Source: a virus
Strand: one strand, 5' to 3'
IMG/VR virus record: IMGVR_UViG_3300009703_004110
Location: 124,001-188,000 of that record
DNA: 64,000 bases
In this document: positions 13,131 through 40,556 of the stretch, piece after piece
How the letters are laid out: the number at the start of each line of letters is the position of its first letter
Numbering within the stretch: the first letter of the stretch is position 1
Notes under the pieces: model-generated
The model's input: only the letters and a program-made list of their open reading frames with translations
Told to the model about the DNA's origin: nothing
The model's database searches: none
Position numbers and translations under genes: made by a program

Positions 13131-13943
13131 TTAAGATATATCAGCAATTTCCAAAATATCATCGTATTTTAATGCTATAGCAGTAGACGTAGAACCGAAA
13201 TTTGGTATAGGGGTTAAAACAGAATCAAAGTAGAAAAGCATTTTCTCAATTACATTATCAATAGGTATTTCGACTCTCCACTCGGAATAAGTCGAAATAC
13301 TTATTGTCTGGTTGTATACATAGTCATTAGCATATGCCTCGGCATTTTCGCCACCAATTGATAGGCTTTGAATAAACAATCCATTGGCTCGCAGTTCATT
13401 CCATGCTACATATTGAAGCATCATGGTGACTGTGTCGACTAACTCTTCCAGCTCAGACTGGCTTTCAGAGTAGATATTAATTTCAAAATTCATGCTCCAC
13501 GCACCAGCATAAACACGATGAGAGGGAGTTAGTGTCTCTGATATTAAACCAAAGGAACTCTCCTCCACATCTTTTCTATATTTGTATGTAGCATTTTGAT
13601 TAAAAGATATCGGCTTATATTGTCCGCCGGCATTTTTAATCACGATGGCTGGATAGAACTTAACTTCATATCTGAATATATCACTGATTAAGATCTTTGT
13701 AGTTTCTTCTGAATCTATTTCTATTCCAGTAAGGTCTCTAGTTTTAGGAAAACCATATTCGTCCATTCTATATGTAAAGATATTGTCACGAGCGAAATGT
13801 TTTCTAAGTGTGTCAATTAAAAGATTTTTTGGCTGAACGATACAAACTTGCTGAATGATCGCATTATCATCATAAAAGTTAGAATAAACTCTATGGTCAC
13901 CATTAAATCCTGTTCCAGGGGTCGCTTGGCTATCAATAGGCAT
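13131..13943 (-). CDS. Putative tail terminator / neck protein (270 aa)
   Basis: A 270-residue protein just before the sheath gene. It contains a helix near SELEELVDTVTMMLQYVAWN and beta strands such as WSMNFEINIYSES and WRVEIPIDNVIEK. Proteins of this size and mixed alpha/beta pattern located immediately ahead of the sheath often cap the tail or join it to the neck. Its start ATG overlaps the stop of the HNH gene by one base. Its first residues (MPIDSQATPG) closely match the first residues of that HNH protein. Function is inferred from position only. Confidence 0.4.
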   Translation of the reverse strand: MPIDSQATPGTGFNGDHRVYSNFYDDNAIIQQVCIVQPKNLLIDTLRKHFARDNIFTYRMDEYGFPKTRDLTGIEIDSEETTKILISDIFRYEVKFYPAIVIKNAGGQYKPISFNQNATYKYRKDVEESSFGLISETLTPSHRVYAGAWSMNFEINIYSESQSELEELVDTVTMMLQYVAWNELRANGLFIQSLSIGGENAEAYANDYVYNQTISISTYSEWRVEIPIDNVIEKMLFYFDSVLTPIPNFGSTSTAIALKYDDILEIADIS

Positions 13944-14242
13944 TATAATAATCCATTATTTTTATGTTCTATAATATGACATTCATGACATAAAGTAATT
14001 CCATTATCAAGATTAAACATAAGATCTCTGTGCTTAGGCTTTGATAGAATATAATGCGCATGTAGCTCATTCCTTAAATGAGTAACGTTACACTTTTGAC
14101 AAATATAGTTATCTCGCTCCCTCACTTCTTTAGACCACTTTGATAATTTATAAGAATTCTTATAAACAGGATTAGATATACCACAATCTTTACATATCTT
14201 TTCCATACTTGCGCCCGGTAGATTTTGTACATCTATTCCCAT
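13943..14242 (-). CDS. Small HNH endonuclease (99 aa), probably homing type
   Basis: Residues about 16-95 form an HNH zinc-finger nuclease: CKDCG, then W-S-K-E-V-R-E-R-D-N-Y-I-C-Q-K-C, HAHYI, NGITLCHECH and a final H. The two CxxC pairs would hold a structural zinc. The usual AHHI pair is AHYI here, so the expected second histidine is a tyrosine, and activity is uncertain. The first 12 residues (MGIDVQNLPGAS) are unlike an HNH start but mirror the first residues of the next gene. An internal Met at residue 13 (MEKICKDCG) may be the ancestral start. Such genes are selfish mobile elements common in phages. Confidence 0.8.
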   Translation of the reverse strand: MGIDVQNLPGASMEKICKDCGISNPVYKNSYKLSKWSKEVRERDNYICQKCNVTHLRNELHAHYILSKPKHRDLMFNLDNGITLCHECHIIEHKNNGLL

Positions 14243-18100: not shown

Positions 18101-18711
18101 TCAGCGGAATGAGAATTATTTCCAGATAAAACATTGCCACTGAAATTAATATGGCCATTAACAATATCCTCTATTACGTTCTGTAAGTTATCATCAGAAC
18201 CTAGTGAATTAAACGACGTAGAACTCTCATCTAGATCTGCCTCAAGAACTGTTATAGCAACAGCATTATGTCGATCTATAGCGTCAGGATGTACGTGAGC
18301 AGAGATAGTAGCATTCAAAACTACAATTTGTGCAGCGAGTACATCAAGCTCTCCGCTTACAATTGATATTTCATCTTGCAGAACCTGGGTAGGAAAATTT
18401 AGCCTTAGCTTTTTTTCCGCAATTGCAGCTACATTAGATACATCTGTATCAGTAATTGGTCCAGCTAAAACATTGGCCTTCGCCAAAGCCTCTTTCCTAA
18501 TATTGCCTGTATCATCTAGAGAGGAGTTTAATCTTGTAGATACAGTATTACCAGCGACACCTTGCGGATTAATACCGAGAGTCTTCTCAATATTTAGAAT
18601 GGCAGACCTTAGGCTGTTAATAACCTCTGAGCCAATTTCAGTTATATTGTCACGAACTGGTGGCAGCTCCTTCGAGGTATCTAACGATGTTGGATATTTA
18701 GACTTCGCCAT
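15103..18711 (-). CDS. Giant fibre/adhesin-like protein, downstream paralogue (1202 aa)
   Basis: The first 130 or so residues are nearly the same as those of the next gene upstream (both begin MAKS-x-YP and share LGINPQG, ANVL, GPIT and PTQVLQDEISIVSGELD). This shared segment is probably the virion attachment domain. The middle is made of repeated beta domains. The last 250 residues look like a right-handed beta-helix: IYIEQGDFEISST-type turns, then NGVTFENFTYES, NVNFLG, MGNLIVTGCRLDRMG and VVVSNNIATN, as in tailspikes and pectate-lyase folds. A host-receptor or polysaccharide-binding role is inferred. The ATG overlaps the upstream stop. Confidence 0.7.
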   Translation of the reverse strand: MAKSKYPTSLDTSKELPPVRDNITEIGSEVINSLRSAILNIEKTLGINPQGVAGNTVSTRLNSSLDDTGNIRKEALAKANVLAGPITDTDVSNVAAIAEKKLRLNFPTQVLQDEISIVSGELDVLAAQIVVLNATISAHVHPDAIDRHNAVAITVLEADLDESSTSFNSLGSDDNLQNVIEDIVNGHINFSGNVLSGNNSHSADQIYFDTEEVEDVIFQDDVQGAIEDLANIGSVGLRNTTLNIASNGRIRTGSIVDDYEDNGTGSVLIEAATVTYAKEGSRTRFSFENAQTPLDPISNFDYLILAGSDTDNDNKSYQIAELIYSGSDLVTVVVFGAPLGESTTGLTASISKNIYVTYNANGLNATPRPRFDKTNTPDIIVANPDAATVITTGIQPSKIVDGTDTFDISIDGGTVVTIETFDSNATTQSIESIVNKINEQAVDQNLNFLAYKIRSNNCYEMALTHILPNIGGDVVNRTLEVKEGSSDDGASELGLDLVLDITKEGEAGNSYHINGLILDTFGGVLEFSSADVEIISETNTISLFSGTFTEKGVRIGDLLVITGSEESDDDGTYRVSDVSGSIVTLDSSTLSLVGALPADTGIIYIIRCSAPIEELDFTEIVSVDGSILIDVFITEEKDVQYYKRMEIDGTVSSGGFQAAIIDVSRGFVVDGEKATVNVDTLGFASLTDPNLADGASIYVGQSGVYRLLANDGLSYVTLSVHSTGLPAVAQTVDLYGFDEIALNNYRVCRGTFSTSLGRVLGAYTGVGVPSVIDKRSSGTVDETIVSESLLEKYIQGPRNELRSHGIVRGLGLSNVNLIDSGETDGSGDIIYYQEVDIDAGVAYVNGIRYEISGFSAFRINSGSDFYLAVDAFGCIATGNQITNPDGYTDGYTDQIAPFADQELAYLGFIDASESTIVDLRHFIDRIDLKSGKIVVSKTQNFGHFTSISSAIAYAGKFTEMYPNQGTPIVYIEQGDFEISSTIIVDFDVKICGAGPDTVLKRSGAFAEGTPPVSGNVDFGDALFLVGKTSETGSDRIFNGVTFENFTYESSEDLEAVGCVISITHPLIKSGESASQVATFRVQNVNFLGPEDIQFGTGADSDLIGEYAIAVGQTDENDFTPTSSITMGNLIVTGCRLDRMGLEFGGIIFSNSASGTFRNVVVSNNIATNMSPAELEDGFEIIEFPTAPTMEGVIENSNAVSLS

Positions 18712-21700
18712 TAATCGAATCCTCCAATTCCTTCTACAGTTGTTGTTTCAACCACATAAGATATATACGCAACATGCTCTTTAAAAGAAGATACGGCCTG
18801 GCGATTAAATTTAATATAAAAATATTTATAATCAGAACCAGATATAGATAAGCCAGATAAATCAACTACATTAAATCCAAGCGCACCATTAGGGTGTATA
18901 CCGATAGTCATTGGATTTGCAGAAGAGCTGGCTTCAGAAGATTGCGTGAGATCTAAATCTTCTGAAAATATTTCATAATCGTGATTTCCAAACTCACCAG
19001 ATCCAGCTATTATTTCTGAATAAAAATGGATCGCCAGTTGAGTCAGCGTTTGTCCGTTTAAAATATCAGGAAGGCGCATCTGAACAAAGTCAGTAGTGTT
19101 AGTTCCATCCAGCAGAATAGTCTTGACCTCTCTACTTCCGTTATTAAATGTACTAAAGGCTGATCCAGGTGTCGGCTCGCCCATAGCCACGTCAGGCAGC
19201 TGATCGACGTGCGCGTATTTGATAGCATTCCTAGCAGTATTATACTTATAAAGATCTGCCTTTATAAAGTCAGTCGACTCAACAAATCCGCCAATATACT
19301 GATTACTTTCTGTTCTAGCACTAATACCATCTATACTTTGAACTAATGTTGGCGCAGTTGCAGAATCTGAAACCTCATGATTGTCTGCAATATAGTTACC
19401 ATAAACTTCTATATTGGATCCATCATTAGCATCATCAAAGCTCACAACATTATTATGTAATAAATAACCAGTGTCATTAGAGTAAAGTACATTATTACTA
19501 AATCTAAAATTTTGAATTCTACTAGCTGTTGTGAATATGACATATGAATCTATAAACTTACAATTATCAATAACGATGTTACCTTTATTTGTGGTTTTAT
19601 CATCAAGTTCAGTAATCGACACACCTCTTCTGCCAATCAGATCATCAAGATTGACAGTGGTAAATGCCGCATCAAAATCGAAAGTAACATTTTTAATCTC
19701 TACTCCAAAGGTAAATGGCGTTCCAGTATCGTCTTCGACATTTAAATCGACACAAGATACCCTACAATTATCCATTCTAAAATCTGAAAGCTTAATAAAT
19801 CCAGAACTAAAAGTACTATTTGGTGCAGTTATTGTTGCAAATTTATCACCAGGTATAAATATAATCCCTCTAAATGAAGCAACTTGATCGGAAAAAGTAT
19901 ATTCTGTTCTTATCTTCAGAATAGTTCCATCGCCTTCTCCAGTGATTGTGACCGGAAAATCGATAAGAAGCCCTTGATCATATACTGCCGTATAAAGACT
20001 GTCATATATTACATCCGGGTCCGCGACAAAATCAGTCTCCCACTCATCATAGGTCCTGGTAGATTCATCCTTTTTAACGGTAACTTCGTGTGTACCAGAC
20101 TTCAGATGAATAGTTGGTGTGCCAGCCAACGGGAACATATCAGAAAATCTTTCTGCATATTTAAGAGCCTGCGTTACACTGTCGAAGTGTGCAAGTCTAT
20201 AGTCTGGAGATACTGTAATAGAATTTAACAGAGTTAGATCTAAATCGCTAATAAACAATCTAAGATCGTAAACTCGAACAGTAGTTTGATCGTATTCAAC
20301 TGTAGCTAAAATCACAGAATCATCATCAGCAAATGGATTATCACAAGTACTTGCCTCTGCCGGTTCAGCTAAAATCTCACCTTCGGAGTTGATTGCAACA
20401 TAAAACTTATCTACTGTGGCCGATTCTATATCCGTTTCAATTGTAACAGTAGATGGTATTTCAAACCTTCTTCCACGAACATAGCAAGTTCCTGATCCAA
20501 CAGTTATGCTATACAACCCATCGTTGATTACAGGGGAGGTAACCTGTAGTCCATATGTTACACCATCACTCCTAAGTTCATTGATCGGCCTTTCCGTACC
20601 TTTATGTATAGCATCCGTTCTTAGATCATCCCATCCAACAGACCCTCTCTGAACAGGAGAAAATACCCTTGGGTTGTCTGGATCGACGCCACCAACTATT
20701 CTACCTCTATAATTTCCAAACGGTACTCGTCCAAGCATCAAAACGGAATCTTCATTAATGCCGTCAAAGGCATATACTGTGGTAGTTATGGTTCCATTGG
20801 CAACAATTTTAGATAGCAGAGTTGCCGCATTTGGAATATAAACTCTCAACCTTCTATTGTCTGTACCTGATTCAATCCATATATATGAGTCGCTTCCGAT
20901 GGCCCTCTGTTTAGTTCCGCCATCTAGAGAAATATTAACTATACTGTTAATATCTTCTATAGTTAAAGTTAGCGTCTCATCCTTGGCAAACGGCCCTTCG
21001 TAATCTGAAATAGAGATAAGAGCATCAATGCCAGAAATTTCTACACCATATTCGAGCCTCTTATTCGAAAACAAGTTTTGATTCTCATCTATAAAAACTT
21101 CCATCATTGTTGCGCCGATCGAGCCGGCGACAGCATCAAAGACAGTATCGTCCAGGTTTATAATATTTTCATAGATTTCAAATACCGCATCATCACCTGG
21201 CGAACCAGCGAATCCGCTCGGTATTTGATCGGTATCGATCACAAGTGACGTAGAGGTCACATCTGAAATTACAAAGCTTCCATCATCTGTACCTTCTTCC
21301 GCACCAGATATGGTAATTAGATCACCATTCTTAATACCAGCTTTCAAAAAATCGACTGATGCACTTCCTATAGTGATTGATGTTGTTCCCGCAAAATATG
21401 ATAGACCAGTAGTATTTAATTTTTCTCTTAGACCAGAGAGTGGCAACCCTTTTATAAAATAAAGTGAACCAACTTCTGCAGAGATATCCAAGTCTTTAAG
21501 ATGAGACAGCCCCGCTGTTGTAAGTGCACCATCGCTACCTTCTCCGATCATCAGGGTCCTCTGATTATCAGTAGTGTCTGGTAAATTATGAACAATAGCG
21601 AACTCAACTCCGCCATCACGAAGCTCTAATCTGTAAGCCAAGAACTTAAAATTGCCTTCAACCGCCTGCTCATTGATTTTCTTTACAATGGAATCAACAG

Positions 21701-23009
21701 ATTGTGTCGTAGAACTTGCATCATAGAGATCTAATGTGGTTGTAGAGCTACCATCAACCGATAAGGTAATGAATCTATTTGTACTGGTAATTTCAGACGG
21801 CTTAACGCCACTAGAGACTATGGCGCATGAATCCGGATTAGCAACCTGCATAGATGTAGCAGAAGTTAAGGTAGCCTTTTCTCTAATGCCAAGAAGCATG
21901 CCTGGTGCATTTTGCGGCCTCTGTGGGTTTTTAGCAACCGTGAATAAAGTTGTAGATACATTAGAGCCATGTAAAAGTCCGTAGACTTCTACGCTCTCTA
22001 CGTCTTCTTCGTCATCAGACAGATTTATAATTGCAATGTAATATGTTCCTACATAAAGTTCATCAGTATCTGCAGTATCTTTTATAATTAAAAGGTCGCC
22101 TTTTTTCGGAGTAAAAGATTCTATTTCTATAGGGTCATTGAAGGTAACCTTGGTTAGACCATCTGACTCACCATCACTTGCTGAAAAAGACGCACCAACA
22201 TCTTCTGCGAAAATTAATCCAATCTCGTCATTTGTAGCATCTTTTAGAGATCCATTCCTCAAATATCCATTGGAATGATGTCTGTCTTGATGAAGAATTG
22301 TTTGTGTACTGGTCAAAAGAGCTGTTTCTTCTATTGCTTCTTGTACGTCATCAGAACTTAATAGACCACTTACTTCAGCGTCATTAAAGTATATTTGATT
22401 AGCGAGATGAGAATTATTTGAAGAACTTATGTCCGCACCCGTATAGTTAATATGTCTATCATGGATGTCTTCAAATGCCTGCTGTACATCTGTTGCCTCA
22501 ATGTCTAGGATACCCTCATCAGATCCTATAGCAGTTGTAGGGTCTGCTGAGATTGCGGTGGCAGCATGCCTGTTGATAGCCGAACTGTTTGTGTGAGCGG
22601 ATAATAGAGCAGAAACATTCTTAATCTGTTCTCCCAGAATATCTAACTCGCCACTGACAATTGATATCTCATCCTGTAAGACTTGTGTTGGAAAAGTAAG
22701 TCTTAGTTTGCTCTCAGCAATGGCTGCTACGCTGGATACGTCTGTATTGGTAATTGGCCCAGAAAGTACATTGGCCAAGGCAAGAGCCTCTTTTCTAATT
22801 TTTCCATTACCATCCAACGCGGCATTTAGTCTGTTTGCCACGGTATTGCCAGATGCGCCCTGAGGGTTAATTCCAAGGGCTCGTTCAATATTGAAAAGAG
22901 CAGAGCGTATGCTGTTAATAGCCTCTGATCCGATCTCTAAAATATCATCTCTAACCGCAGGAACTTCCTTAGATGTATCCAGTTTGCTTGGATAATTAGA
23001 TTTTGCCAT
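18711..23009 (-). CDS. Giant fibre/adhesin-like protein, upstream paralogue (1432 aa)
   Basis: A 1432-residue paralogue of the following gene: the N-terminal attachment region and many later segments (for example QSVDSIVKKINEQAVE versus QSIESIVNKINEQAVD) align along the length. Residues about 950-1280 carry a beta-helix pattern (THLKSGTHEV-like turn, FSSGFIKLSDFRMDNCRVSC, VIDNCKFIDSYVIF, FSNNVLYSND). The C-terminal 130 residues differ from the paralogue and end in a beta-sandwich-like module. The pair arose by duplication and then diverged at the tips, as host-recognition proteins often do. Catalytic residues of a depolymerase cannot be assigned. Confidence 0.7.
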   Translation of the reverse strand: MAKSNYPSKLDTSKEVPAVRDDILEIGSEAINSIRSALFNIERALGINPQGASGNTVANRLNAALDGNGKIRKEALALANVLSGPITNTDVSSVAAIAESKLRLTFPTQVLQDEISIVSGELDILGEQIKNVSALLSAHTNSSAINRHAATAISADPTTAIGSDEGILDIEATDVQQAFEDIHDRHINYTGADISSSNNSHLANQIYFNDAEVSGLLSSDDVQEAIEETALLTSTQTILHQDRHHSNGYLRNGSLKDATNDEIGLIFAEDVGASFSASDGESDGLTKVTFNDPIEIESFTPKKGDLLIIKDTADTDELYVGTYYIAIINLSDDEEDVESVEVYGLLHGSNVSTTLFTVAKNPQRPQNAPGMLLGIREKATLTSATSMQVANPDSCAIVSSGVKPSEITSTNRFITLSVDGSSTTTLDLYDASSTTQSVDSIVKKINEQAVEGNFKFLAYRLELRDGGVEFAIVHNLPDTTDNQRTLMIGEGSDGALTTAGLSHLKDLDISAEVGSLYFIKGLPLSGLREKLNTTGLSYFAGTTSITIGSASVDFLKAGIKNGDLITISGAEEGTDDGSFVISDVTSTSLVIDTDQIPSGFAGSPGDDAVFEIYENIINLDDTVFDAVAGSIGATMMEVFIDENQNLFSNKRLEYGVEISGIDALISISDYEGPFAKDETLTLTIEDINSIVNISLDGGTKQRAIGSDSYIWIESGTDNRRLRVYIPNAATLLSKIVANGTITTTVYAFDGINEDSVLMLGRVPFGNYRGRIVGGVDPDNPRVFSPVQRGSVGWDDLRTDAIHKGTERPINELRSDGVTYGLQVTSPVINDGLYSITVGSGTCYVRGRRFEIPSTVTIETDIESATVDKFYVAINSEGEILAEPAEASTCDNPFADDDSVILATVEYDQTTVRVYDLRLFISDLDLTLLNSITVSPDYRLAHFDSVTQALKYAERFSDMFPLAGTPTIHLKSGTHEVTVKKDESTRTYDEWETDFVADPDVIYDSLYTAVYDQGLLIDFPVTITGEGDGTILKIRTEYTFSDQVASFRGIIFIPGDKFATITAPNSTFSSGFIKLSDFRMDNCRVSCVDLNVEDDTGTPFTFGVEIKNVTFDFDAAFTTVNLDDLIGRRGVSITELDDKTTNKGNIVIDNCKFIDSYVIFTTASRIQNFRFSNNVLYSNDTGYLLHNNVVSFDDANDGSNIEVYGNYIADNHEVSDSATAPTLVQSIDGISARTESNQYIGGFVESTDFIKADLYKYNTARNAIKYAHVDQLPDVAMGEPTPGSAFSTFNNGSREVKTILLDGTNTTDFVQMRLPDILNGQTLTQLAIHFYSEIIAGSGEFGNHDYEIFSEDLDLTQSSEASSSANPMTIGIHPNGALGFNVVDLSGLSISGSDYKYFYIKFNRQAVSSFKEHVAYISYVVETTTVEGIGGFD

Positions 23010-28853: not shown

Positions 28854-29309
28854 TTACTTTTTACGATGAGCGGCACACAAAGTGCCCTTTTTCGGAGCTT
28901 GACGTTTACATCGCTGACCATTAGTCTTTACAAATAAACATCTTTTAAACTCAGGAGGCGCCTTAACCTCTTCATAATCTTCCATTACAACCGGATTAAA
29001 CTTTGGTTCAGACTCTTCCTCCATCACTATAAATCCATGAGATTCGTCCTTTTTCTCTGTAATGTTTGTAACATCACCTGAGGTAGTAGTACCATAAATT
29101 GCGGCGCGCCTCTCCTGCTCGTTGGAGGCCTCTAACTCATCTAAATCTTTTTGAAACTCAAAGAAGCTTTCATACGCCACATCATATTCATCTGCATCAT
29201 CTGGAACATGGTGCTCTCCACGTCGTCCAATATCATGAGGAGATGGGGCTTTACGAATTGGCGTACCTTTAATTAGATGACTTCTTTTCTTCAGCTTGCT
29301 CTTTAGCAT
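28854..29309 (-). CDS. Hypothetical protein with C-terminal zinc-binding motif (about 151 aa)
   Basis: The C-terminal 30 residues read RCLFVKTNGQRCKRQAP then GTLCAAHRKK, a C-x9-C-x9-C-x2-H arrangement typical of small zinc-binding tails in phage and bacterial proteins. The middle is acidic and disordered. Start chosen at 29309 (MLKSKLKK): an AGGAGG site lies six bases before this ATG, whereas the ATG just upstream is only three away. It overlaps the upstream lysine-rich gene by 41 bases. Confidence 0.55.
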   Translation of the reverse strand: MLKSKLKKRSHLIKGTPIRKAPSPHDIGRRGEHHVPDDADEYDVAYESFFEFQKDLDELEASNEQERRAAIYGTTTSGDVTNITEKKDESHGFIVMEEESEPKFNPVVMEDYEEVKAPPEFKRCLFVKTNGQRCKRQAPKKGTLCAAHRKK

Positions 29310-29922
29310 CATCTTCCTCCTCAAAATACCTTGACAGAATCTCTTCTAAGGCGTCATGGATCTCATCCTCTAAATCCTCTGCCTCTTCTTTGTCTAGCTC
29401 TAGATCGAATGGCAGGTTTACCCTTGCGCCGACTTCATTATCCTTTATGAAGATATTAAAATGAGGGTCCGGAGTTTTGCACTCAGTATCTTCGTCATTA
29501 GTAGTGTGAAGAACTTCCTTCATCTGTTCGGCCATGTCATGAACCCTGTCAGATGCGTCGGGAAGCTCTAAAAGTTTAAGAGCAATCGCGAGTTTGGTAA
29601 GGTCACTAAAGAGAGAAGACTTCTTTTTCTTCTTCTTCTTCTTCTTTTTATCTTTCCACTTGACCTTCTTTTCCCACTTCTTAACTTTCTTTTTTGTTTC
29701 CTCTTTGTCAGTGGAAACGTGAGATTCTTCTAGATTTTTGTTTTGGTTCAATACGCCCCATGCCTTTGCATAAGCTCTCGCATCGCTTTCGCCAGCATCC
29801 TTAGCGCCCTCAAAGACAGCCATAAATTGGCGGTACTCTTTGGCGCCAGCACCTGGATGACGCTTCTTGACTTTCTTTTTAATATCAGCAGGAACTGATT
29901 TTTTCTTTGCCGTAATCAGCAT
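29269..29922 (-). CDS. ChaB-like N-terminus, poly-lysine and acidic protein (217 aa)
   Basis: Residues about 10-58 (VPADIKKKVKKRHPGAGA, then a YRQFMAVFEGAKDAG helix and YAKAWGVLNQ) resemble the short helical ChaB fold found in phages and bacteria, with its A-W near the end. Then follows a strongly basic stretch that ends in ten consecutive lysines (about residues 92-101), a hydrophobic helix, and a C-terminal acidic domain (KEEAEDLEDEIHDALEEIL). The lysine tract is encoded by AAG/AAA repeats. It follows a terminator and so begins a new transcript region. DNA binding by the basic half is plausible, not proven. Confidence 0.5.
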   Translation of the reverse strand: MLITAKKKSVPADIKKKVKKRHPGAGAKEYRQFMAVFEGAKDAGESDARAYAKAWGVLNQNKNLEESHVSTDKEETKKKVKKWEKKVKWKDKKKKKKKKKKSSLFSDLTKLAIALKLLELPDASDRVHDMAEQMKEVLHTTNDEDTECKTPDPHFNIFIKDNEVGARVNLPFDLELDKEEAEDLEDEIHDALEEILSRYFEEEDDAKEQAEEKKSSN

Positions 29923-29940
29923 CTTAAAACTCCATTAAAA

Positions 29941-29970
29941 AAGCCGCAGATCTAATGGGATCTGCAGCTT
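29941..29970 (-). terminator. Rho-independent terminator closing the small-gene island
   Basis: Arms AAGCCGCAGATC (29941-29952) and GATCTGCAGCTT (29959-29970) pair with one mismatch and a six-base loop; on the minus strand they are followed by TTTTTT. It ends transcription from the 30-34.7 kb small-gene island. Confidence 0.85.
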
Positions 29971-30020
29971 TAAGACTTTCCCATCTAATTAGGAGCGTCA
30001 ATATTAATATAGTTTAATCA

Positions 30021-30072: not shown

Positions 30073-30174
30073 TTATTCCTCGCATTCACACCTGACGCAA
30101 TCACAGCAGCTAGTAACACAAACGCACTCTCTGCAGATTGCACATAGCTCGCAACATTCACATTTATTTTCCAT
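30073..30174 (-). CDS. Metallothionein-like cysteine-rich micropeptide (33 aa)
   Basis: An ATG at 30174 follows an excellent AGGAGG site seven bases away and opens a 33-codon frame ending in TAA. The peptide has 12 cysteines in 33 residues: MENKCECCELCAICRE then CVCVTSCCDCVRCECEE. CxC, CC and CxxC spacings resemble metallothioneins, although no known family was recognised. The remaining residues are mostly acidic. It should bind soft metals such as Zn, Cu or Cd if reduced. It is the last gene of the small-gene island before the terminator. Too short for ordinary gene callers. Confidence 0.75.
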   Translation of the reverse strand: MENKCECCELCAICRECVCVTSCCDCVRCECEE

Positions 30175-30201: not shown

Positions 30202-30570
30202 TTAGTTGGTTATATTCATCTTCGATATGCCTTTTGGATTCATAACGCCTATGCCAATTTTTTCAGTTACAGACCATGAAAGTCCCGTCCTTGGTAATAA
30301 AGCAGGAAAAGAATCAAAGTTATATACGCACCATTCCTTTAAAACATCTGGAAGATCATCAAATATCTCCTCCAGAGGGCATGGTGTTGATGTGGCAATA
30401 AGCTTTCCATTACGAATACTTTTCTGCTGTTTAATTTTATAACAATTAACTTTATAATCATATATTCCATAGTATACGAATTCAAATTCGCCATTAGAAA
30501 ATTTACCACTACTAACTTCTTTAAAGCCAGCAGCTTTCAATATTCTTTCAAATTCATTACAGTCTTCCAT
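30202..30570 (-). CDS. Small-island family protein fused to a capsid-like C-terminal motif (122 aa)
   Basis: The N-terminal 90 residues fit the small-gene family of this island: a helix ending in GF (FERILKAAGFKEV), beta strands, then IFDDLPDVLKEWCVYNFDSF. The last 30 residues are different: LSWSVTEKIGIGVMNPKG closely matches LGWVVSEIIGIGIVNPRG from the C-terminus of the major capsid protein 4.3 kb upstream. The DNA under the two motifs has diverged, so the copy is old. It starts with a TAATG overlap to its neighbour. It may be a remnant of a capsid gene end carried along by the island, or a protein that interacts with the capsid. Confidence 0.7.
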   Translation of the reverse strand: MEDCNEFERILKAAGFKEVSSGKFSNGEFEFVYYGIYDYKVNCYKIKQQKSIRNGKLIATSTPCPLEEIFDDLPDVLKEWCVYNFDSFPALLPRTGLSWSVTEKIGIGVMNPKGISKMNITN

Positions 30571-30953
30571 TAGGCAAACCTCAATCTTTCGTATTCTGCT
30601 TTCTCTGTGGCATTAGCACGTTTTGCCTCAGCAGCATTAACAAGTCTTTTACGTTCTCTAGCAAGGTCCTGCATGTTAAATAATGTTGTATCTCTTATTT
30701 CATATACAGTTAATTGGTCATATGCGTGTTCGTTATAACTCTCAGGTAAGTGTCCGGCATATTTGCTATCCCAATACATTTCCTCATAATCGTCATCATT
30801 ATAGTCAAGATCGTTAACAAATAAAAGTTCTTTTTTAATTCTTGCAACAAGCTCCTCCATCGAATCAGCATATTCTGTCCAGGTTTTTACTCCGCAGCCA
30901 ATAGTGTAATCACATCCGCTGCCTTGCTCGGCTATAACTAAAAAGGTCTTCAT
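30570..30953 (-). CDS. Hypothetical acidic small-island protein (127 aa)
   Basis: A beta strand start (MKTFLVIAEQGSGCDYTIGCG) is followed by a helix (YADSMEELVARIKKEL), an acidic stretch DYNDDDYEEMYWDS and a C-terminal basic, alanine-rich helix. The YNxELF motif of most neighbours is absent, so it is not assigned to that family. Coupled by ATGA to the upstream gene and TAATG to the next. Function unknown. Confidence 0.6.
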   Translation of the reverse strand: MKTFLVIAEQGSGCDYTIGCGVKTWTEYADSMEELVARIKKELLFVNDLDYNDDDYEEMYWDSKYAGHLPESYNEHAYDQLTVYEIRDTTLFNMQDLARERKRLVNAAEAKRANATEKAEYERLRFA

Positions 30954-31213
30954 AATCTTATCTCTCCTTTACTTGTAGATACAAACATATCTAGATTACA
31001 TAATACAAATATCGCCTGATCTCTTCCAAGTTCCATTAGAAAATCATCAAGCTCAGTCTCTCCTATATCCTTAGGGTCAAGTCTACGTCGTTTATAAACC
31101 AATAGTTTATACCCATCGCTTACCATTTTTGGAACAAATCGCCACTTAAACTTATCTTTTCCAAGCTCTCGAAACAGCTCATCTTTAAAGCCTTGGCATT
31201 CAAATAAGGTCAT
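30950..31213 (-). CDS. Small-island family protein (about 87 aa)
   Basis: Start chosen at 31213 (MTLFECQGFKDELF) because a GGAG site lies seven bases upstream; the longer frame from 31240 has none. The protein shows the family outline: an N-terminal helix with QGF, basic beta strands (YKLLVYKRRR), and near the C-terminus FVLCNLDMF, a variant of the IIYNxELF motif. Its start lies inside the end of the upstream gene (14-base overlap). Function unknown. Confidence 0.55.
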   Translation of the reverse strand: MTLFECQGFKDELFRELGKDKFKWRFVPKMVSDGYKLLVYKRRRLDPKDIGETELDDFLMELGRDQAIFVLCNLDMFVSTSKGEIRL

Positions 31214-31445
31214 TAAATGGCTCCATATCATTATGGTCAAACATATCTAAATTATTAATCAAAATATCTTTAATCGAAACTGATAAATAATCATCATTTA
31301 ACATAGCTTCCAATAACATCTTGGTACTATTTGGGCTAGACCAGCATATTATTTGAACCTTGCTACCTATTTGCCCCATAAACATTTTTCGTCTAGCCAG
31401 GTAATCGTCTAATCCAAGCTTATTCATTTCTGATATTATTTTCAT
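31200..31445 (-). CDS. Small-island family protein (81 aa)
   Basis: Starts at 31445, one base over the stop of the upstream member (TGATG). The helix FISEMNKLGLDD-like start, strands (VQIICWSS) and the end SIKDILINNLDMFDHND fit the family motif with a nine-residue-plus extension after it. Function unknown; assigned to the island family by motif. Confidence 0.55.
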   Translation of the reverse strand: MKIISEMNKLGLDDYLARRKMFMGQIGSKVQIICWSSPNSTKMLLEAMLNDDYLSVSIKDILINNLDMFDHNDMEPFNDLI

Positions 31446-31816
31446 CAAAATAACTCCGCATTATAAATAATAAAGTCTTGCAACTCTATGGGTAAATCAT
31501 CAATAATCTGGTCAGTGCTTTGATAAATATAGTTACTATCTTTTGGATTCCATCTTGAAAATACGATTGTTTCATCTCTGTGCATAGAGACGCGCAACTC
31601 TTTTTTAAGCTCTGAGTCAGATACATCCAAACGAAAATCTTCAAAGTACTGAAGAGATTTAAAACCGCTTGATATAACTAAGGACCTAAATCTTGCAAAT
31701 TTATCAAACGGCAGTTTATAGCCATTAGAAATAATTAGATTAAGACTAACATAGTCGAGTCTAAAACCTAAGTCTATAGTGCACAAGGAATTATTTAATC
31801 CTCTAATTTTCTTCAT
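31445..31816 (-). CDS. Small-island family protein (123 aa)
   Basis: A clear member: FRSLVISSGFKSLQYF (helix then GF), strands ending in ETIVFSRWNP, and the C-terminus IIDDLPIELQDFIIYNAELF, which stops right at the motif. Its start overlaps the zinc-finger gene upstream by 14 bases. One of the best-preserved copies, useful as a reference for the family. No known domain recognised. Confidence 0.65.
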   Translation of the reverse strand: MKKIRGLNNSLCTIDLGFRLDYVSLNLIISNGYKLPFDKFARFRSLVISSGFKSLQYFEDFRLDVSDSELKKELRVSMHRDETIVFSRWNPKDSNYIYQSTDQIIDDLPIELQDFIIYNAELF

Positions 31817-32039
31817 AAATCTCGCGCTCTAATACATCGTTAATTAAAAGCTCAAGAGGACGCCTTATATACTCAGGCGGCTGTATTCTGGGCGATTGAT
31901 CGCTAGCCCGTATAAATTGGGTCTTACGCATAGAATCTAAACGACATTGCTTAGAGCAGTATGCTAGAGAGCACTCAGTCTTTTTTATATATATAAATGC
32001 TTTGCAGCAATGGGTACACATGGTTTTATGGGTTTTCAT
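31803..32039 (-). CDS. Small zinc-finger protein in the small-gene island (78 aa)
   Basis: Residues about 8-33 are a zinc finger: CTHCCKAFIYIKK, then CSLAYCSKQCR. This is the 'CxxC ... YCSxxC' type often seen in phage and homing-endonuclease-linked proteins. The rest (RRPLELLINDVLEREIYEEN) is helical and does not carry the IIYNxELF motif. ATGA overlap with the upstream gene. It could bind nucleic acid. Confidence 0.6.
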   Translation of the reverse strand: MKTHKTMCTHCCKAFIYIKKTECSLAYCSKQCRLDSMRKTQFIRASDQSPRIQPPEYIRRPLELLINDVLEREIYEEN

Positions 32040-32239
32040 ATAAACAGCTCCATATTGTGAATCATATAATTTTGAAACCTTTTTGGTATTCCAGGAAATT
32101 CCAGAATCTTTTCAGCAGAGATCGGATTAAATACATCCGAAATTAAAGACACAAAAATAATCTTTTTTTTGCCATCGACTCTCGCCATTGATATAAAATT
32201 TAGACTCAGCCATTCCGAAAATTCTTCTTCAATATTCAT
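32036..32239 (-). CDS. Small-island family protein (67 aa)
   Basis: One of the shortest members: an N-terminal EEEFSEWLSLNF helix, two strands (KKIIFVSLIS), then FPGIPKRFQNYMIHNMELFI at the end. Both ends use ATGA overlaps. The shortened middle suggests partial deletion or a minimal functional version. Confidence 0.6.
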   Translation of the reverse strand: MNIEEEFSEWLSLNFISMARVDGKKKIIFVSLISDVFNPISAEKILEFPGIPKRFQNYMIHNMELFI

Positions 32240-32532
32240 ATAAATAACCCTATATTATGAATGATGAGATCTTGAACATCAGGCGGAAACTCATTCATAT
32301 GTTCTGACACCTTTCTTAACTCATAATTAAGATAACCATCTATATTATTAGGATCTCTAATTTTATCTATTGATTCGTATACATATAATTTTTCCATACG
32401 AACAGAATAAACGATGCGCATTCTTAAGCCATCATTAAAAAATGCATGATTATGTCGATAGGTCTTTTGTACAAATCCTATCGAATTTAATATTCTTATT
32501 ATAGACGGAGGCACGGCATTTCCATAATTCAT
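32236..32532 (-). CDS. Small-island family protein (98 aa)
   Basis: Full outline: IIRILNSIGFVQKTYRHNH (helix, GF), strands (MRIVYSVRMEKLYVYES), acidic helix, then FPPDVQDLIIHNIGLFI at the C-terminus. Coupled by ATGA at both ends. The SIDKIRD segment after the strands recurs in the 123-residue member as STDQIID, a second family landmark. Confidence 0.65.
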   Translation of the reverse strand: MNYGNAVPPSIIRILNSIGFVQKTYRHNHAFFNDGLRMRIVYSVRMEKLYVYESIDKIRDPNNIDGYLNYELRKVSEHMNEFPPDVQDLIIHNIGLFI

Positions 32533-32834
32533 ATAAATAACTCCGCATTATAAATCACAAACTCTTGGACCTCTTCTGGCAAAAAAGCAAATAGGTCTCC
32601 GACGCTTTTACCCGGATAAGATTTCACAAATCCGCTACAATCAAGCTTTCCAAATGTAAGCTTAACATGATCGCCGCGCTCACGGAAAGATATTCTAATC
32701 TCCTTTTTAAAGGTATAGTCGTATCTGCTTCCAGAACGTGAACTTATTTCAAATCCTGAGCACATCATGACGCTGTGAAATTCATAAGCGGGAATAGTGG
32801 CGAGAATGTATTCTCCCGGGTATCTTCCTTTCAT
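32529..32834 (-). CDS. Small-island family protein (101 aa)
   Basis: Contains FHSVMMCSGFEISSRSGSR (helix, GF), basic strands (KKEIRISFRERGDHVKL) and the C-terminus FLPEEVQEFVIYNAELFI. Its ATG would overlap the stop of the frameshifted upstream member (ATGA) if that gene were intact. Function unknown; one of the clearest family members. Confidence 0.65.
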   Translation of the reverse strand: MKGRYPGEYILATIPAYEFHSVMMCSGFEISSRSGSRYDYTFKKEIRISFRERGDHVKLTFGKLDCSGFVKSYPGKSVGDLFAFLPEEVQEFVIYNAELFI

Positions 32835-33081
32835 ATAAGTAAATCCATATTATGAATCAAAGCATCCTTTACATATTGTGGGAAACGATTGCTTTCAAGG
32901 GCCTCTGATATATATCCCAAGTATAAACATATCTATATCCCGCCTCATCATCGCGACGCTCCTGTATATAGGTGCTTATAAAAAAATCGTCTACATCATT
33001 GCGACCACTATATATGACCATATTATTTTCTTTTAGATATTCACTTATTTCTGGTATATCGATATAATCTCTGACACTCAT
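32831..33081 (-). pseudogene. Frameshifted small-island family member (AT slip)
   Basis: The frame from 33081 (MSVRDYIDIPEISEYLKEN) gives a 70-residue product that ends without the family motif. In another frame the DNA continues as EALESNRFPQYVKDALIHNM then DLLI and a stop at 32831-32833, which is the ATGA overlap with the next gene seen elsewhere in the island. Removing one AT from the (AT)4 run near 32916-32925 restores a single frame. Either a decaying gene, a phase-variable one or a consensus error. A 78-base gap separates it from the gene upstream. Confidence 0.7.
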
Positions 33082-33159
33082 AAATTCCGCCTGCCTATCT
33101 AGGCTTTTCTATACAGTACCTGCGCGAACGATGGTGTGCAAATCTAGGAATGGAAAGAT

Positions 33160-33414
33160 TTACACAAACAGTTCCAAATTATGGATAATATAATCCTGGA
33201 TGGTTAACTCAAGATCGTTTAGTTTATCACCTATATCATAAAGAATATACTCCATTCTATCATTGTTCCAGATCCCATAATACCATTTTTTATAAGGATG
33301 ATTGCTCCAGTAATCACATATAATTTTTTCATCGCCATAACAATAGCATCCCTTTTGTCTGGATACAAAACCGCGCTTCTCTAGAAGATCGAAGAATTCA
33401 TTATATTCAATCAT
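33160..33414 (-). CDS. Small-island family protein (84 aa)
   Basis: Shows FFDLLEKRGFVSRQKGCYC (helix, GF), tyrosine/tryptophan-rich strands (KWYYGIWNNDRMEYI), DIGDKLND, and the end LTIQDYIIHNLELFV. The ATG overlaps the previous member's stop (ATGA). Like the others it is a small, soluble alpha/beta protein with no recognised domain. Confidence 0.65.
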   Translation of the reverse strand: MIEYNEFFDLLEKRGFVSRQKGCYCYGDEKIICDYWSNHPYKKWYYGIWNNDRMEYILYDIGDKLNDLELTIQDYIIHNLELFV

Positions 33415-33650
33415 ACAAACAACTCCATATTATATATGATATAATCTTTAACTTCTATAGGAAATTGATTAGAATTTAATACATAAGTTATAGAATGCCA
33501 CTCAATATGTTTTCCAGGCCTTTTAATCCCAATAGAATATTTACCATCTTCATCTGCAAAGCTGCTAGTTGCCAAACTACAGTCATACTGTCCAATGAAA
33601 TGACTTATAATTGCATAATAATTATTTGTATTATCATCAGGTATTGACAT
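33411..33650 (-). CDS. Small-island family protein (79 aa)
   Basis: Short member with strands around KYSIGIKRPGKHIEWHSITY and the end FPIEVKDYIIYNMELFV. The start ATG lies directly after the TAA of the amber-interrupted member. The N-terminal helix (NNYYAIISHFIGQYD) lacks the usual GF. Function unknown. Confidence 0.6.
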   Translation of the reverse strand: MSIPDDNTNNYYAIISHFIGQYDCSLATSSFADEDGKYSIGIKRPGKHIEWHSITYVLNSNQFPIEVKDYIIYNMELFV

Positions 33651-33839
33651 TTATTGGCCCTTTATTCTAATAAATAGATCCAAGTTATAAATAATAAAGC
33701 TGCGCGCAGGATCCGGAAGGTCTTCGCATTCTAAGAGTGCTTCGGCAGACCACCAGACTTTCTCGCAATCATCACTCTAAGTAACGTACTCCCATAAGTC
33801 CATATATCCATACACTTCTGTTAACTTTGGTTTATTCAT
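33651..33839 (-). pseudogene. Amber-interrupted small-island family member
   Basis: An ATG at 33839 overlaps the HNH stop (TAATG) and opens a 62-codon frame with one in-frame TAG at 33777-33779 (codon 21). The reading after it continues in the same frame as VWWSAEALLECEDLPDPARS then FIIYNLDLFIRIKGQ and stops at 33651-33653, directly before the next ATG. The motif and both junctions are intact, so a single nonsense mutation explains it. TAG is a normal stop elsewhere here (portal gene), so general recoding is unlikely. Confidence 0.7.
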
Positions 33840-34681
33840 TACCAGTTATCCTTATTGGCGAGCATTTTTTCTAAATGAGACTTGAGAAAGCAGGCATCGT
33901 GAGCCATCTTTACTCTATTACATACTTCACAACAAGATACTACATTGTCAAGGCTATAGCCTTTGCTAGAGTCAACTCTGTCCACCCCAAGAGTTTCTAT
34001 CTTGTCCCCGCAATAATTACAAGGCTTCTGCCAAAAAGTAGAAAACTGTTCGTCAGTTAGATTCCAAGCAAATCCTCTTTTCTTTGCATTAAACTTATAT
34101 TTAGATAGCTTACCTGCGAGAGTGGCGTTATGTATTTTAGCATAGGCACGCTCCTGCTTTCTGGCTTTTTCTAGATTTTCACTTCGCCACTTATTCTTTG
34201 CAACTCTTCTCTTTTCGCGATATACCTCATCATCTTTATATTTTTCCTTGTGCCATTTGGCCTTGCAGGGTTTGCAAACTACTCCAAATCCATCATCCCT
34301 TGACTTATCCTTATAAAAGTCATCAACTGATAACGTTAGCTTACAATGCGAGCATCGTTTTTCTATTTTATCTGAAAATATACCACTTGCTGCATTTTTC
34401 TTTCTCTTTTTAATACGACAAAGTTTGCACACATTCTCCCTACCATCCGCAAGAAGCTTTGATTTATTAAAGCTATCCATAGGTAATAATTCCGAACAAG
34501 CTTTGCAGGTCTTTTCTATTCTATCTATATCATATTTAATTCTTGGAACCGGCACTCTTTTGGCATTTTTTACTTTACTAGTACAGGTTCTGCACCTATT
34601 AGAATATCCATCTTTAGTTGCCTTATTTAAACTATATGCCTCATATGGCATAGGATCTTTACAGTAGTTACAAGTCTTCAT
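33839..34681 (-). CDS. HNH homing endonuclease with three zinc fingers (about 280 aa)
   Basis: The N-terminal two thirds hold three copies of a CxxC ... DGxxxxCxxC finger (first CNYCKDPMPYEAY, then CKACSELLPMDSF and CSHCKLTLSVDDF). The C-terminus is an HNH nuclease: PCNYCGDKIETLGVDRVD, GYSLDNVVSCC, EVCNRVK. Such proteins bind and nick specific phage sites and spread by homing. Start taken at 34681 (MKTCNYCK), which follows GGAGGAGGG; the longer frame from 34708 begins inside the promoter-like site. It lies right after the capsid terminator and heads the small-gene island. Confidence 0.85.
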   Translation of the reverse strand: MKTCNYCKDPMPYEAYSLNKATKDGYSNRCRTCTSKVKNAKRVPVPRIKYDIDRIEKTCKACSELLPMDSFNKSKLLADGRENVCKLCRIKKRKKNAASGIFSDKIEKRCSHCKLTLSVDDFYKDKSRDDGFGVVCKPCKAKWHKEKYKDDEVYREKRRVAKNKWRSENLEKARKQERAYAKIHNATLAGKLSKYKFNAKKRGFAWNLTDEQFSTFWQKPCNYCGDKIETLGVDRVDSSKGYSLDNVVSCCEVCNRVKMAHDACFLKSHLEKMLANKDNW

Positions 34682-34698
34682 CCCTCCTCCATACATAT

Positions 34699-34727
34699 AT
34701 TTTACCATCGTGAAGCATCGAAATCAA
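34699..34727 (-). promoter_or_regulatory. Sigma-70-like promoter for the HNH/small-gene island
   Basis: On the minus strand TTGATT (34722-34727), a 17-base spacer and TAAAAT (34699-34704) lie just upstream of the GGAGGAGGG site and the HNH start at 34681. The match to a host sigma-70 promoter is good and the place (between the capsid terminator and the island) is logical. Transcription would begin only about ten bases before the start codon. Confidence 0.45.
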
Positions 34728-34806
34728 AAAAATTTGGATTGGGTGTGAAAATTTTATTTCTTAGTGACGACCCACCCAAGCCAAAGCAGCATCAGAGGCG
34801 AAAAAA

Positions 34807-34834
34807 AATCCCTGTCTCCGAAGAGTCAGGGATT
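34807..34834 (-). terminator. Rho-independent terminator after the major capsid gene
   Basis: Arms AATCCCTG and CAGGGATT (34807-34814 and 34827-34834) with a short inner stem are followed on the minus strand by eight T. It sits 33 bases past the capsid stop codon and separates capsid transcription from the island. Confidence 0.85.
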
Positions 34835-34866
34835 AATTATACGGAATCCTCAATGAGGACTAGGGT

Positions 34867-35880
34867 TTAGTCAGTGACAAAGCCACTGCCGACACCTCGG
34901 GGGTTTACAATCCCAATTCCGATTATTTCGCTGACTACCCAGCCAAGCTTCAACTGCTTAGGCTCGTCAGCAGGCAGTACCTCGATGTCCTGACGGACAG
35001 GCATTACACCTACGAACTCTGGATCCGCTACTGCGAAGACCTGCTTGTTAGTAACAACCTTGGAGACGATGATATCAGCACCGAAGATTGAACCATAAAG
35101 TCCAGTCTGTAGTAGTTCACGCTGAGTCACAGGATCGACCTGAGACGCACCACCGGCACCAGCAGACTCCCAATTAAGGATGTCAGTGAATTCATTGATG
35201 TGCATGAAGTACTTAGCAGTCACGAGGTCCCAACGATCGACCTGACGCTTTAGGTTTAGAAGACCGACCTTAGCCAGTTCATCAGTGGTAGTACCGTTGT
35301 CCAATGTCTGCAACTGGTTCTCACCACCTGCGTTGTTGTCACCGGCGAAATCAAGAGCGGCGAATACGTTAGCATCCTCCTGCGCCTGGATTTCCTGACG
35401 GGCCTTTTGCTGAGCACGATCGATTACATTGAATCTACGCCTCTTGACTTCAGCAATACGGACGGTTGGGTTTGAAACTACTTCAAACTCTGGGATGGTT
35501 ACTCTGTCACCGAAGACACGGGACTCAGGCGCGGTACCATTGCTAGATATAACAACAGCTCCTACGTCGATATCACGGTCGTAGACAGGTAGAGCACCTT
35601 GTGGAAGTGGATCGACTACGAGAGCCTTTCTACCTACACCTTGGTAATCAAGGTTCCTACGAATAGGATTAGCCATAGCTTGACCGAGGGCAGTCTTACC
35701 TTCTTGAGTCATAAGAGCCTGCTTGATCATTTCGTCTCTCTGCTCTTCATTTAATGAAGAACCCTGAGATAGAGCTGAGCTAGAAGGTGCCAATTCTTCA
35801 ATGATGGAAGCGTATCTAACAATCTGCGCTAGAGCATCTTTTACGTTGCCGGCGTTTAATTCGCCTTGTGTATTAAACAT
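34867..35880 (-). CDS. Major capsid protein, HK97 fold (337 aa)
   Basis: A 337-residue protein of the HK97 type: a helical N-terminal arm (about 1-70), then a P-domain and E-loop pattern (YDRDIDVGAVVIS, RVFGDRVTIPEFEVV), a helical KRRRFNVIDRAQQKARQEI spine, and a C-terminal beta region ending in LGWVVSEIIGIGIVNPRG. It has its own strong ribosome site (AAGGAG) and is followed by a strong terminator, as expected for the most abundant virion protein. It lies after the scaffold/protease and other head genes. No delta-domain or separate scaffold part is visible in it. Confidence 0.85.
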   Translation of the reverse strand: MFNTQGELNAGNVKDALAQIVRYASIIEELAPSSSALSQGSSLNEEQRDEMIKQALMTQEGKTALGQAMANPIRRNLDYQGVGRKALVVDPLPQGALPVYDRDIDVGAVVISSNGTAPESRVFGDRVTIPEFEVVSNPTVRIAEVKRRRFNVIDRAQQKARQEIQAQEDANVFAALDFAGDNNAGGENQLQTLDNGTTTDELAKVGLLNLKRQVDRWDLVTAKYFMHINEFTDILNWESAGAGGASQVDPVTQRELLQTGLYGSIFGADIIVSKVVTNKQVFAVADPEFVGVMPVRQDIEVLPADEPKQLKLGWVVSEIIGIGIVNPRGVGSGFVTD

Positions 35881-39673: not shown

Positions 39674-39817
39674 TCATTTATTTTCCCTTCTAACTCTTTT
39701 AATTACATTTCTGCTAACAGAGAAGCGTTGGGCTAGTGCTTTGCCGCTTAACGTATATGACATAATCAAATCTATTTGTTCTTTAGTAAATTCAATTCTA
39801 TTGACAAGCTTTACGCC
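39674..39817 (-). pseudogene. Orphan C-terminal HTH of the GIY-YIG endonuclease (frameshifted)
   Basis: In the frame next to the endonuclease the DNA reads LVNRIEFTKEQIDLIMSYTL then SGKALAQRFSVSRNVIKRV, a classic homing-endonuclease helix-turn-helix (the Tn-type intron-encoded repeat). It would follow directly after the nuclease's last NUMOD3 element if one base were removed between about 39808 and 39819. The endonuclease frame instead stops at a TAG 20 bases later. A start codon for an independent protein is not convincing. About 100 further bases to the next gene hold nothing recognised. Confidence 0.65.
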
Positions 39818-40556
39818 CCTTAAGAGCTGCCGATATCTTAGCCTTTGTTTCTTCAGGAAGAGGGACGCCCTTGTTGTGAGCGATTCTATCAGGAGCGGTG
39901 AGTGCGCCATGCTTTCTTAATCTCTGTTCATGCATATCACAATAACGTATTCCATTAACTTTGAATCCATCGGTTCTTTCGCATCCTGGTGCGTTGCAAA
40001 CTTTGGAGCCATAGTTTTTATCAAATGTTATTTTCCTTTTATCCAGCTCATCTTGAGTTGGCTGGTAACCTTTTTTGTAATTACCAGCATGAAGATTTTC
40101 TTTGTGATGTTCTGATATTTTTCTTTTATGTTCTTCAGAAAGTTTTCTGCCTCGATTAGCTTCGTGAGCTTTTTTTATACTTTCAAGAGTATGGTGCTTG
40201 TGCCAATCTTCGGACATCTTCTTCTTTGTTTCTTCGGAGTGTTTCCAGCCCCCACGAGTATTCCCGCCGGGCCTTAGATTGTATCCAAACTTTTTATCTT
40301 GAGACTTATATTGTCTTATTACCCTTGCCTCTGCTAAGTCGCAATCATTTTTAAAAATATGCTCCTCAAGGATTTCGAAAGTAAAGTTTTTAACTCCATG
40401 TTTATTTATCGCATGATGAACATACTGATTGGTCTTTTTATTCTTAGCCAAATATCTATGCCTATACCATCTAGCCATGGGATCTGCACTCTGACCTATG
40501 TAGACTTTTTTATTCAGAATATTTGTTATTTTATATATGTAGTATTTTTTGGACAT
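39798..40556 (-). CDS. GIY-YIG homing endonuclease (252 aa; C-terminus frameshifted)
   Basis: Residues 5-95 are a GIY-YIG nuclease: YYIYKITNILNKKVYIGQS, then the R (ARWYRHR) and a Glu near 77, and GYNLRPGG with the conserved Asn. Three NUMOD3 helix modules follow (HSEETKKKMSE, LSEEHKRKISE, LPEETKAKISAALKGRK) and a zinc-finger-like CNAPGCERTDG ... YCDMHEQ segment. It is a DNA-binding, site-specific homing endonuclease. The frame ends early; the expected HTH lies in the next frame. It interrupts the head operon between two structural genes. Confidence 0.85.
   Translation of the reverse strand: MSKKYYIYKITNILNKKVYIGQSADPMARWYRHRYLAKNKKTNQYVHHAINKHGVKNFTFEILEEHIFKNDCDLAEARVIRQYKSQDKKFGYNLRPGGNTRGGWKHSEETKKKMSEDWHKHHTLESIKKAHEANRGRKLSEEHKRKISEHHKENLHAGNYKKGYQPTQDELDKRKITFDKNYGSKVCNAPGCERTDGFKVNGIRYCDMHEQRLRKHGALTAPDRIAHNKGVPLPEETKAKISAALKGRKACQ

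Follow-up and report, generated by a model that had tools for sequence, protein, structure and literature searches.

The virus record IMGVR_UViG_3300009703_004110 of IMG/VR is 332,270 bases long, and the window analyzed here comprises its bases 124001-188000 (64 kb). Nearly all window genes are encoded on the minus strand. Next to the major capsid protein gene lies a tandem array of small genes, designated m01 to m13, most of whose products share a C-terminal module of two predicted helices. The capsid protein belongs to PHROG 2522, the major head protein (E 2e-73), and, across 85% of its length, shares 50% identity with gp27 of Bacillus phage G. Because of these two matches, the virus is assigned by sequence to the jumbo phages of the phage-G-like capsid lineage. 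A DNA-level search against 50,697 phage records gave no match, and no tRNA or Rfam element was detected in the region searched.

The array and its members

The array was originally described as eleven genes or gene remnants of an unrecognized family, with two unrelated genes mixed in. The gene positions and coordinates (Table 1) are as they were then placed. Membership was evaluated with a hidden Markov model (HMM) that was built exclusively from members outside the window, to avoid circularity, and was used to scan the window genes. Ten of the proposed members fill the top ten ranks (m13, m09, m05, m12, m10, m08, m07, m01, m04 and m11, in this order; E 9e-7 to 8e-3), and the best window gene after them reaches E 0.2. 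By this profile the array is real, beyond chance, and 10 of the 11 proposed members are confirmed; the eleventh, m03, is not significant (E 0.44). Two copies are broken, m10 by a frame shift and m13 by an in-frame TAG. The two unrelated genes are m02 and m06.

A constant tail on variable heads

The feature common to the members is the C-terminal two-helix module, which spans approximately 25 residues and has a consensus near FEEvFDxLPeexqExIifNxDLF. For comparison, each protein was cut into a head and its last 27 residues, with shuffled sequence as the control. The heads of the window array are 21% identical versus 20% when shuffled, and the tails 38% versus 19%. An array in a related genome, G005, behaves in the same way, with heads at 22% versus 19% and tails at 36% versus 22%. 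Because head identity lies at the shuffled level and tail identity above it, the C-terminal module is taken as the mark of the family, and the other members appear to share just this tail. The sole window pair that aligns over most of its length is m05 and m09 (31% over 86 aa, E 4e-8). The repeated duplication of one gene that was proposed for the array is visible for this pair only. Likewise, the layout originally proposed, an N-terminal helix that ends in GF together with central strands, fits the predicted architecture described below, but most pairs of heads do not exceed shuffled identity.

A lack of relatedness in profile comparison was one of the conditions said to refute the original prediction, and this comparison did not refute it. 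The window array matches the G005 array with 92.7% probability (E 4e-7), compared to a maximum of 2% among 60 column-shuffled profiles. The AlphaFold2 model of one G005 member (pLDDT 90.5, pTM 0.78) has the order helix, four strands, two helices. The module forms the last two helices and is an integral part of this predicted fold. The model of m11 (pLDDT 72, medium confidence) shows the same order.

Neither model has a match below E 0.02 in Foldseek searches of the PDB and of viral models. The array members have no significant family match in Pfam, PHROG, NCBIfam or PADLOC, as expected from the original statement that no known family is recognizable; they form what appears to be a real family in a translationally coupled array. 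The best library match is PHROG 35185 (E 7e-4), in which 41 head residues of one G005 member align to a family of unknown function. The LP-x-E-x4-I stretch of the module superficially resembles the first F-box helix. The rest of that domain is absent and there is no Pfam F-box match, and an F-box identity is rejected.

Several gene endings also carry DNA-level signals. Approximately half of the array junctions are ATGA overlaps, fewer than the majority first reported, though the overlapping arrangement as such stands. At the remaining junctions the genes meet as TAATG/TGATG, overlap by 14 nt, or are separated by 12 or 78 nt. At several junctions a GGAG within the x-E codons lies 7-8 nt ahead of the following start ATG, which overlaps the stop. 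The tail motif is also kept where the ribosome-binding site sits elsewhere (m03, m04) or is absent (m11, m10), and in singletons without a downstream member (L097, L115, L199, L202). Because the motif persists in all of these settings, the junction signals are judged to constrain the ending, yet the protein itself is conserved.

Distribution in related jumbo phages

The iterated profile converged on 68 frames, 54 of them distinct. The module is C-terminal in nearly all bearers, and most end no more than 14 residues from the stop. In the window's own genome (G000), bearers outside the window lie at about 3, 35, 189, 251, 266, 285, 294, 314 and 321 kb. Bearers are also found in G003, G005, G015, G035 and G037, and none was detected in phage G, Tunturi_5, LR745208 or Rctr197k. 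The family is thus not bound to the capsid neighborhood, and on this point the original interpretation is not supported; by these profile matches, its arrays and singletons are scattered across related genomes.

The module bearers recovered belong to related jumbo phages. Direct searches of IMG/VR with m09 or m01 yielded no confirmed relative, and degenerate tail DNA patterns in IMG/VR gave chance matches and already known phages only. In 84,980 bacterial and archaeal genomes, the tail DNA pattern has 40 matches, every one of which the HMM marks as chance (best E 0.019).

Beyond the window, three more arrays were read, independent of one another. The G005 array encodes at least 12 alpha/beta small-protein members with one unrelated gene among them. 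The G003 array encodes proteins of ~190 residues, whose ends match the G005 module with 93% probability in profile-profile comparison. The heads of 9 of its 11 members match Imm5_like PF21805 (best E 6e-7; 28.8 bits, cut-off 25). The Imm5-like assignment holds for these heads only, and window members do not match PF21805. The G037 array encodes at least eight HREDGPA-repeat proteins ending in EEWFEQLTEEQQEKLLFN, and it is tied to the family by a profile match (best E 2e-4).

Additional observations were made at these loci. The G003 loci L111, L094, L100 and L102 contain tandem Imm5-like proteins with hypervariable Ala/Tyr/Asn-rich centers; their near-identical ends suggest recent recombination among copies. 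At L198 (G037:202000-211453), near the contig end, the proteins are 117-255 aa long and have HREDGPA (MORN-like) repeats and a shared tail.

Singleton module genes adjoin groEL, translation and SpoVR-type genes. Orthologous singletons conserve their heads as well, with 44% and 38% identity. In two genomes (L205, G000:188800-190000; L099, G005), a module gene lies directly upstream of the phage groEL. At L199 (G000:34500-36500) and L206 (G003), the module gene is flanked by two genes that we take to be YeaH/DUF444 and SpoVR, a set unusual for a phage.

An insertion hot spot after the capsid gene

The array is part of a larger accessory segment. Eighty capsid loci of relatives were compared and then reduced to non-redundant loci. 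In these relatives, the conserved genes 28854 and 28596 usually lie directly 3' of the capsid gene. Because relatives join the capsid gene directly to 28854/28596, the window insertion is taken to extend from position 34708, in the HNH gene, through gene 29269. It is ~5.5 kb long by this comparison and contains, besides the array, the HNH/endonuclease VII gene at one end and a Cys-rich mini-ORF followed by gene 29269 at the other. The original prediction treated the array as an island between two terminators, with a promoter-like site of its own. Its view of the island as a unit agrees with the insertion, but its boundary at 33839 is wrong. The flanking hairpins are present, but promoter- and terminator-like patterns occur in the region no more often than expected by chance.

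The site that separates the capsid gene from the conserved gene following it appears to be a hot spot. Among the non-redundant loci, 36 have a spacing of no more than 644 bp from the capsid gene to the following conserved genes, and 11 have one of 1.3-8.7 kb. HNH genes are found in 6 of the 11 insert-bearing loci, four with a homolog of the window HNH gene (L006, L039, L068, L076) and two with another HNH type (L034, L037). In the full set, HNH homologs directly follow the capsid gene in L006-L008, L039, L068-L070 and L076. The window HNH gene is intergenic and is absent at the same site from relatives without an insert. Further hot-spot inserts include L067:11147-12469 and L008:13171-14484, which from their sequences we take to be seryl-tRNA synthetase-like (serS-like) and adenylosuccinate lyase-like (purB-like), respectively, and a 1235-aa gene in L077.

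Most relatives lack an insert. L008, whose capsid protein is 92% identical, has a single module gene after the HNH gene in the same place. This state suggests that the array grew from a single-member stage. No counterpart of the Cys-rich mini-ORF was found at the relatives' 80 capsid loci. Its candidacy as the ancestral right flank of the capsid gene was ruled out, since it is present in no relative.

Table 1. Positions of the array genes and neighboring features in the window
Feature	Positions	Strand	Evidence or remark
Major capsid protein gene	34867..35880	-	left neighbor of insertion in transcription order
Hairpin then T run after capsid gene, likely terminator	34801..34836	-	-16.4 kcal/mol, z -1.4
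Free-standing HNH/endonuclease VII-type gene, likely mobility gene	33839..34708	-	PHROG 1035 endonuclease VII, E 2e-38
m13, member remnant, in-frame TAG	33663..33836	-	tail, non-window HMM E 9e-7
m12, member	33411..33650	-	non-window HMM E 3e-5
m11, member	33160..33414	-	non-window HMM E 0.008; AlphaFold2 model pLDDT 72
m10, member remnant, frame shift	32831..33081	-	tail, non-window HMM E 1e-4
m09, member	32529..32834	-	HMM E 1e-5; resembles m05 over most of length
m08, member	32236..32532	-	non-window HMM E 7e-4
m07, member	32036..32239	-	non-window HMM E 7e-4
m06, unrelated Cys-rich, zinc-finger-like gene inside array	31803..32039	-	sequence; library matches weak only
m05, member	31445..31816	-	non-window HMM E 3e-5
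m04, member with additional C-terminal extension containing m03 ribosome-binding site	31200..31445	-	HMM E 0.006
m03, possible member, not significant	30950..31213	-	non-window HMM E 0.44
m02, unrelated gene inside array	30570..30953	-	best family match no better than E 0.006
m01, member fused in frame to capsid-protein C-terminus copy	30202..30570	-	HMM E 0.001
26-codon capsid C-terminus copy and stop, far end of array	30202..30282	-	part of m01
Cys-rich mini-ORF, 33 aa, 12 Cys, behind AGGAGG site, just after m01	30073..30174	-	
Strong hairpin then T run, likely island terminator	29940..29972	-	-20.4 kcal/mol, z -3.5
217-aa gene, part of insertion	29269..29922	-	homologs in 0/80 capsid loci
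Conserved gene, right border of insertion, directly after capsid gene in most relatives	28854..29324	-	50/80 loci

Elsewhere in the window, two more endonuclease-type genes are inserted in the structural region: a GIY-YIG gene with NUMOD3 (39798-40556, minus strand) and a small HNH/zinc-ribbon gene (13943-14242, minus strand). The adjacent long genes 15103-18711 and 18711-23009 (minus strand) encode 1202 and 1432 aa. Their products begin almost identically (MAKSxYPxxLDTSKExPxVRD), and they are likely duplicated tail genes.

A capsid-tail copy at the end of m01

The original prediction overlooked a copy of the capsid C-terminus at the end of m01. m01 continues past its own module into LSWSVTEKIGIGVMNPKGISKMNITN, which can be aligned gap-free with LGWVVSEIIGIGIVNPRGVGSGFVTD, the end of the capsid protein, as far as the stop codon. 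The alignment scores 71, and shuffles score 28.7 +/- 4.5 (maximum 54). When LSWSVTEKIGIGVMNPKGISKMNITN was searched in 18 genomes, 16 gave a match; in all 16 the capsid gene was the best non-self match, and no other gene was hit. The homology of m01 to the capsid gene ends abruptly upstream of the copy. The codon positions match at 15, 17 and 8 of 26 (positions 1, 2 and 3), so that third positions are near chance and capsid-like amino acids are retained. That the phage recently duplicated its own capsid tail is ruled out because third codon positions are near saturation.

The simplest and most likely reading is that the copy is a recombination scar at the insertion border. The copy would stem from a distant capsid gene or from a lost capsid paralog, or would have been kept for a function. 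Were it functional, it might act as a mimic that disturbs the capsid assembly of competitors, or tether array products to capsids. It is in frame, has the same stop position, and keeps capsid-like residues despite its third positions. A segment from a distant capsid gene would show the same pattern, however, and the m01 tail is 44% identical to the LR745208 capsid tail compared to 46-50% for the phage's own. The copy is also seen only in the window's genome, at a border where a scar is expected, and a function is very improbable. A lost second capsid-type gene, such as a vertex-protein paralog replaced by the insertion, is somewhat less improbable but still unlikely. The order of capsid gene, endonuclease and capsid-like tail mirrors 23-segD-24 of T4 (PMC2988022), and the divergence fits a paralog better than a recent duplicate. 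Against this, no relative among the 80 loci has a second capsid-type gene here, and only one capsid gene was found in the window's genome.

Comparison with known systems

Homogeneous polyimmunity loci consist of tandem SUKH, Imm11, Imm36 and other genes, which are small, co-directional and overlapping, lack toxin genes, and vary in copy number among close relatives (Zhang et al. 2012, PMC3482391). The window array is similarly tandem, runs in one direction, has short or overlapping junctions and no toxin genes, and lies near a DNA-mobility gene; the related G003 array bears Imm5-like heads. Unlike those loci, the window array lies in a jumbo phage, its unrelated heads share one C-terminal module, and its members match no known immunity family in Pfam, NCBIfam or PADLOC; the loci are defined by the predominance of one known type of immunity protein.

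The T4 endonuclease gene segD sits between capsid gene 23 and vertex gene 24 (PMC2988022). Like the T4-type free-standing homing endonucleases (seg/mob), the window HNH gene is an intergenic endonuclease gene beside a capsid gene and is absent from most relatives. It differs in that it travels with multi-gene cargo and is of the EndoVII type with zinc-ribbon repeats. Bacillus phage G has a lineage-specific expansion of ~35 zinc-ribbon genes (PMC7824862). Phage G is likewise a jumbo phage, its capsid protein is related, and its paralog expansion is large, but the fold is different and phage G has no detectable constant-tail member.

As in the internal proteins of T4, a constant short helical tag is placed on variable small proteins. 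The T4 proteins share an N-terminal capsid-targeting sequence that is cleaved; the window module is C-terminal, and the array members are not of that class. Expanded paralog families in jumbo phages and endonuclease genes at capsid loci are already known. To our knowledge, one C-terminal module on several unrelated head types has not been described in phage arrays; a literature search, limited in subscription journals and not proof of absence, found no such account.

Proposed origin and function

Overall, the original observation is confirmed in part and its interpretation supported in part. The family and the hot spot are very likely real. The best explanation combines insertion, array growth and a panel of binders, and as a whole it has about an even chance of being correct. 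Intronless homing is a probable origin of the insertion: the HNH protein would cut competitor phages at the capsid gene or close to it and in this way move the segment. The array would grow and decay through the birth and death of its genes, and recombination at the insertion site would have left the capsid-tail copy on m01 as a scar. The variable heads may each bind a different host or rival-phage protein. The constant tail would dock all members on one common phage partner or mediate dimerization. This function, similar to polyimmunity or anti-defense, is proposed tentatively, because the array anatomy (tandem, co-directional, overlapping, no toxin genes) matches the published polyimmunity loci. 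Copy number of the array also differs between close relatives.

Several points weigh against this explanation. The m11 model reaches medium confidence only. The window proteins match no immunity, defense or anti-defense family in the libraries searched, and the Imm5-like match is modest (E 6e-7), is confined to G003 heads, and lies in part within an Ala-rich stretch. Some hot-spot inserts have no HNH genes (the serS-like L067 and the 1235-aa gene of L077), and HNH catalysis and homing are predictions.

Other roles for the constant tail have to be weighed. It could be a sorting tag that brings variable heads into the virion or some other compartment of the phage, to be injected and to act against host defenses. 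One constant tail on several unrelated head types would fit this, as would the location of the window array next to the capsid gene, within the late structural region. The T4 capsid-targeting tag is N-terminal and cleaved, however, other arrays and singletons lie away from structural genes, and the module is integral to the predicted fold in alpha/beta members, all of which make a sorting tag unlikely. Less likely still is a selfish or neutral proliferation of proteins with little function, whose ending persists mainly because its DNA supplies the following gene with a ribosome-binding site and a start codon. The GGAG in the x-E codons with its overlapping stop, and the two broken copies, are what it would predict. 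It does not account for the motif where the site is elsewhere, absent, or followed by no member, for the conserved heads of orthologous singletons, or for the confident predicted fold of one member.

A broader reading of the module is possible but rather doubtful. Dozens of unrelated small proteins in this jumbo-phage clade, with alpha/beta, Imm5-like and HREDGPA-repeat heads, may use the portable two-helix module as a universal handle for docking or sorting. The tandem arrays, spread in part by endonuclease-driven insertion, would then be a modular effector/immunity kit with a common receptor.

Significance

Most genes of jumbo phages are unannotated, and the module, present on ~54 proteins, offers a single entry point to many of them. 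The capsid-adjacent hot spot and the capsid-tail copy exemplify the insertion of endonuclease-linked cargo next to an essential gene. Should the heads prove to be immunity- or anti-defense-like, the arrays would be to phages what polyimmunity loci are to bacteria. The partner of the tail, once found, would open the biology of the whole set.

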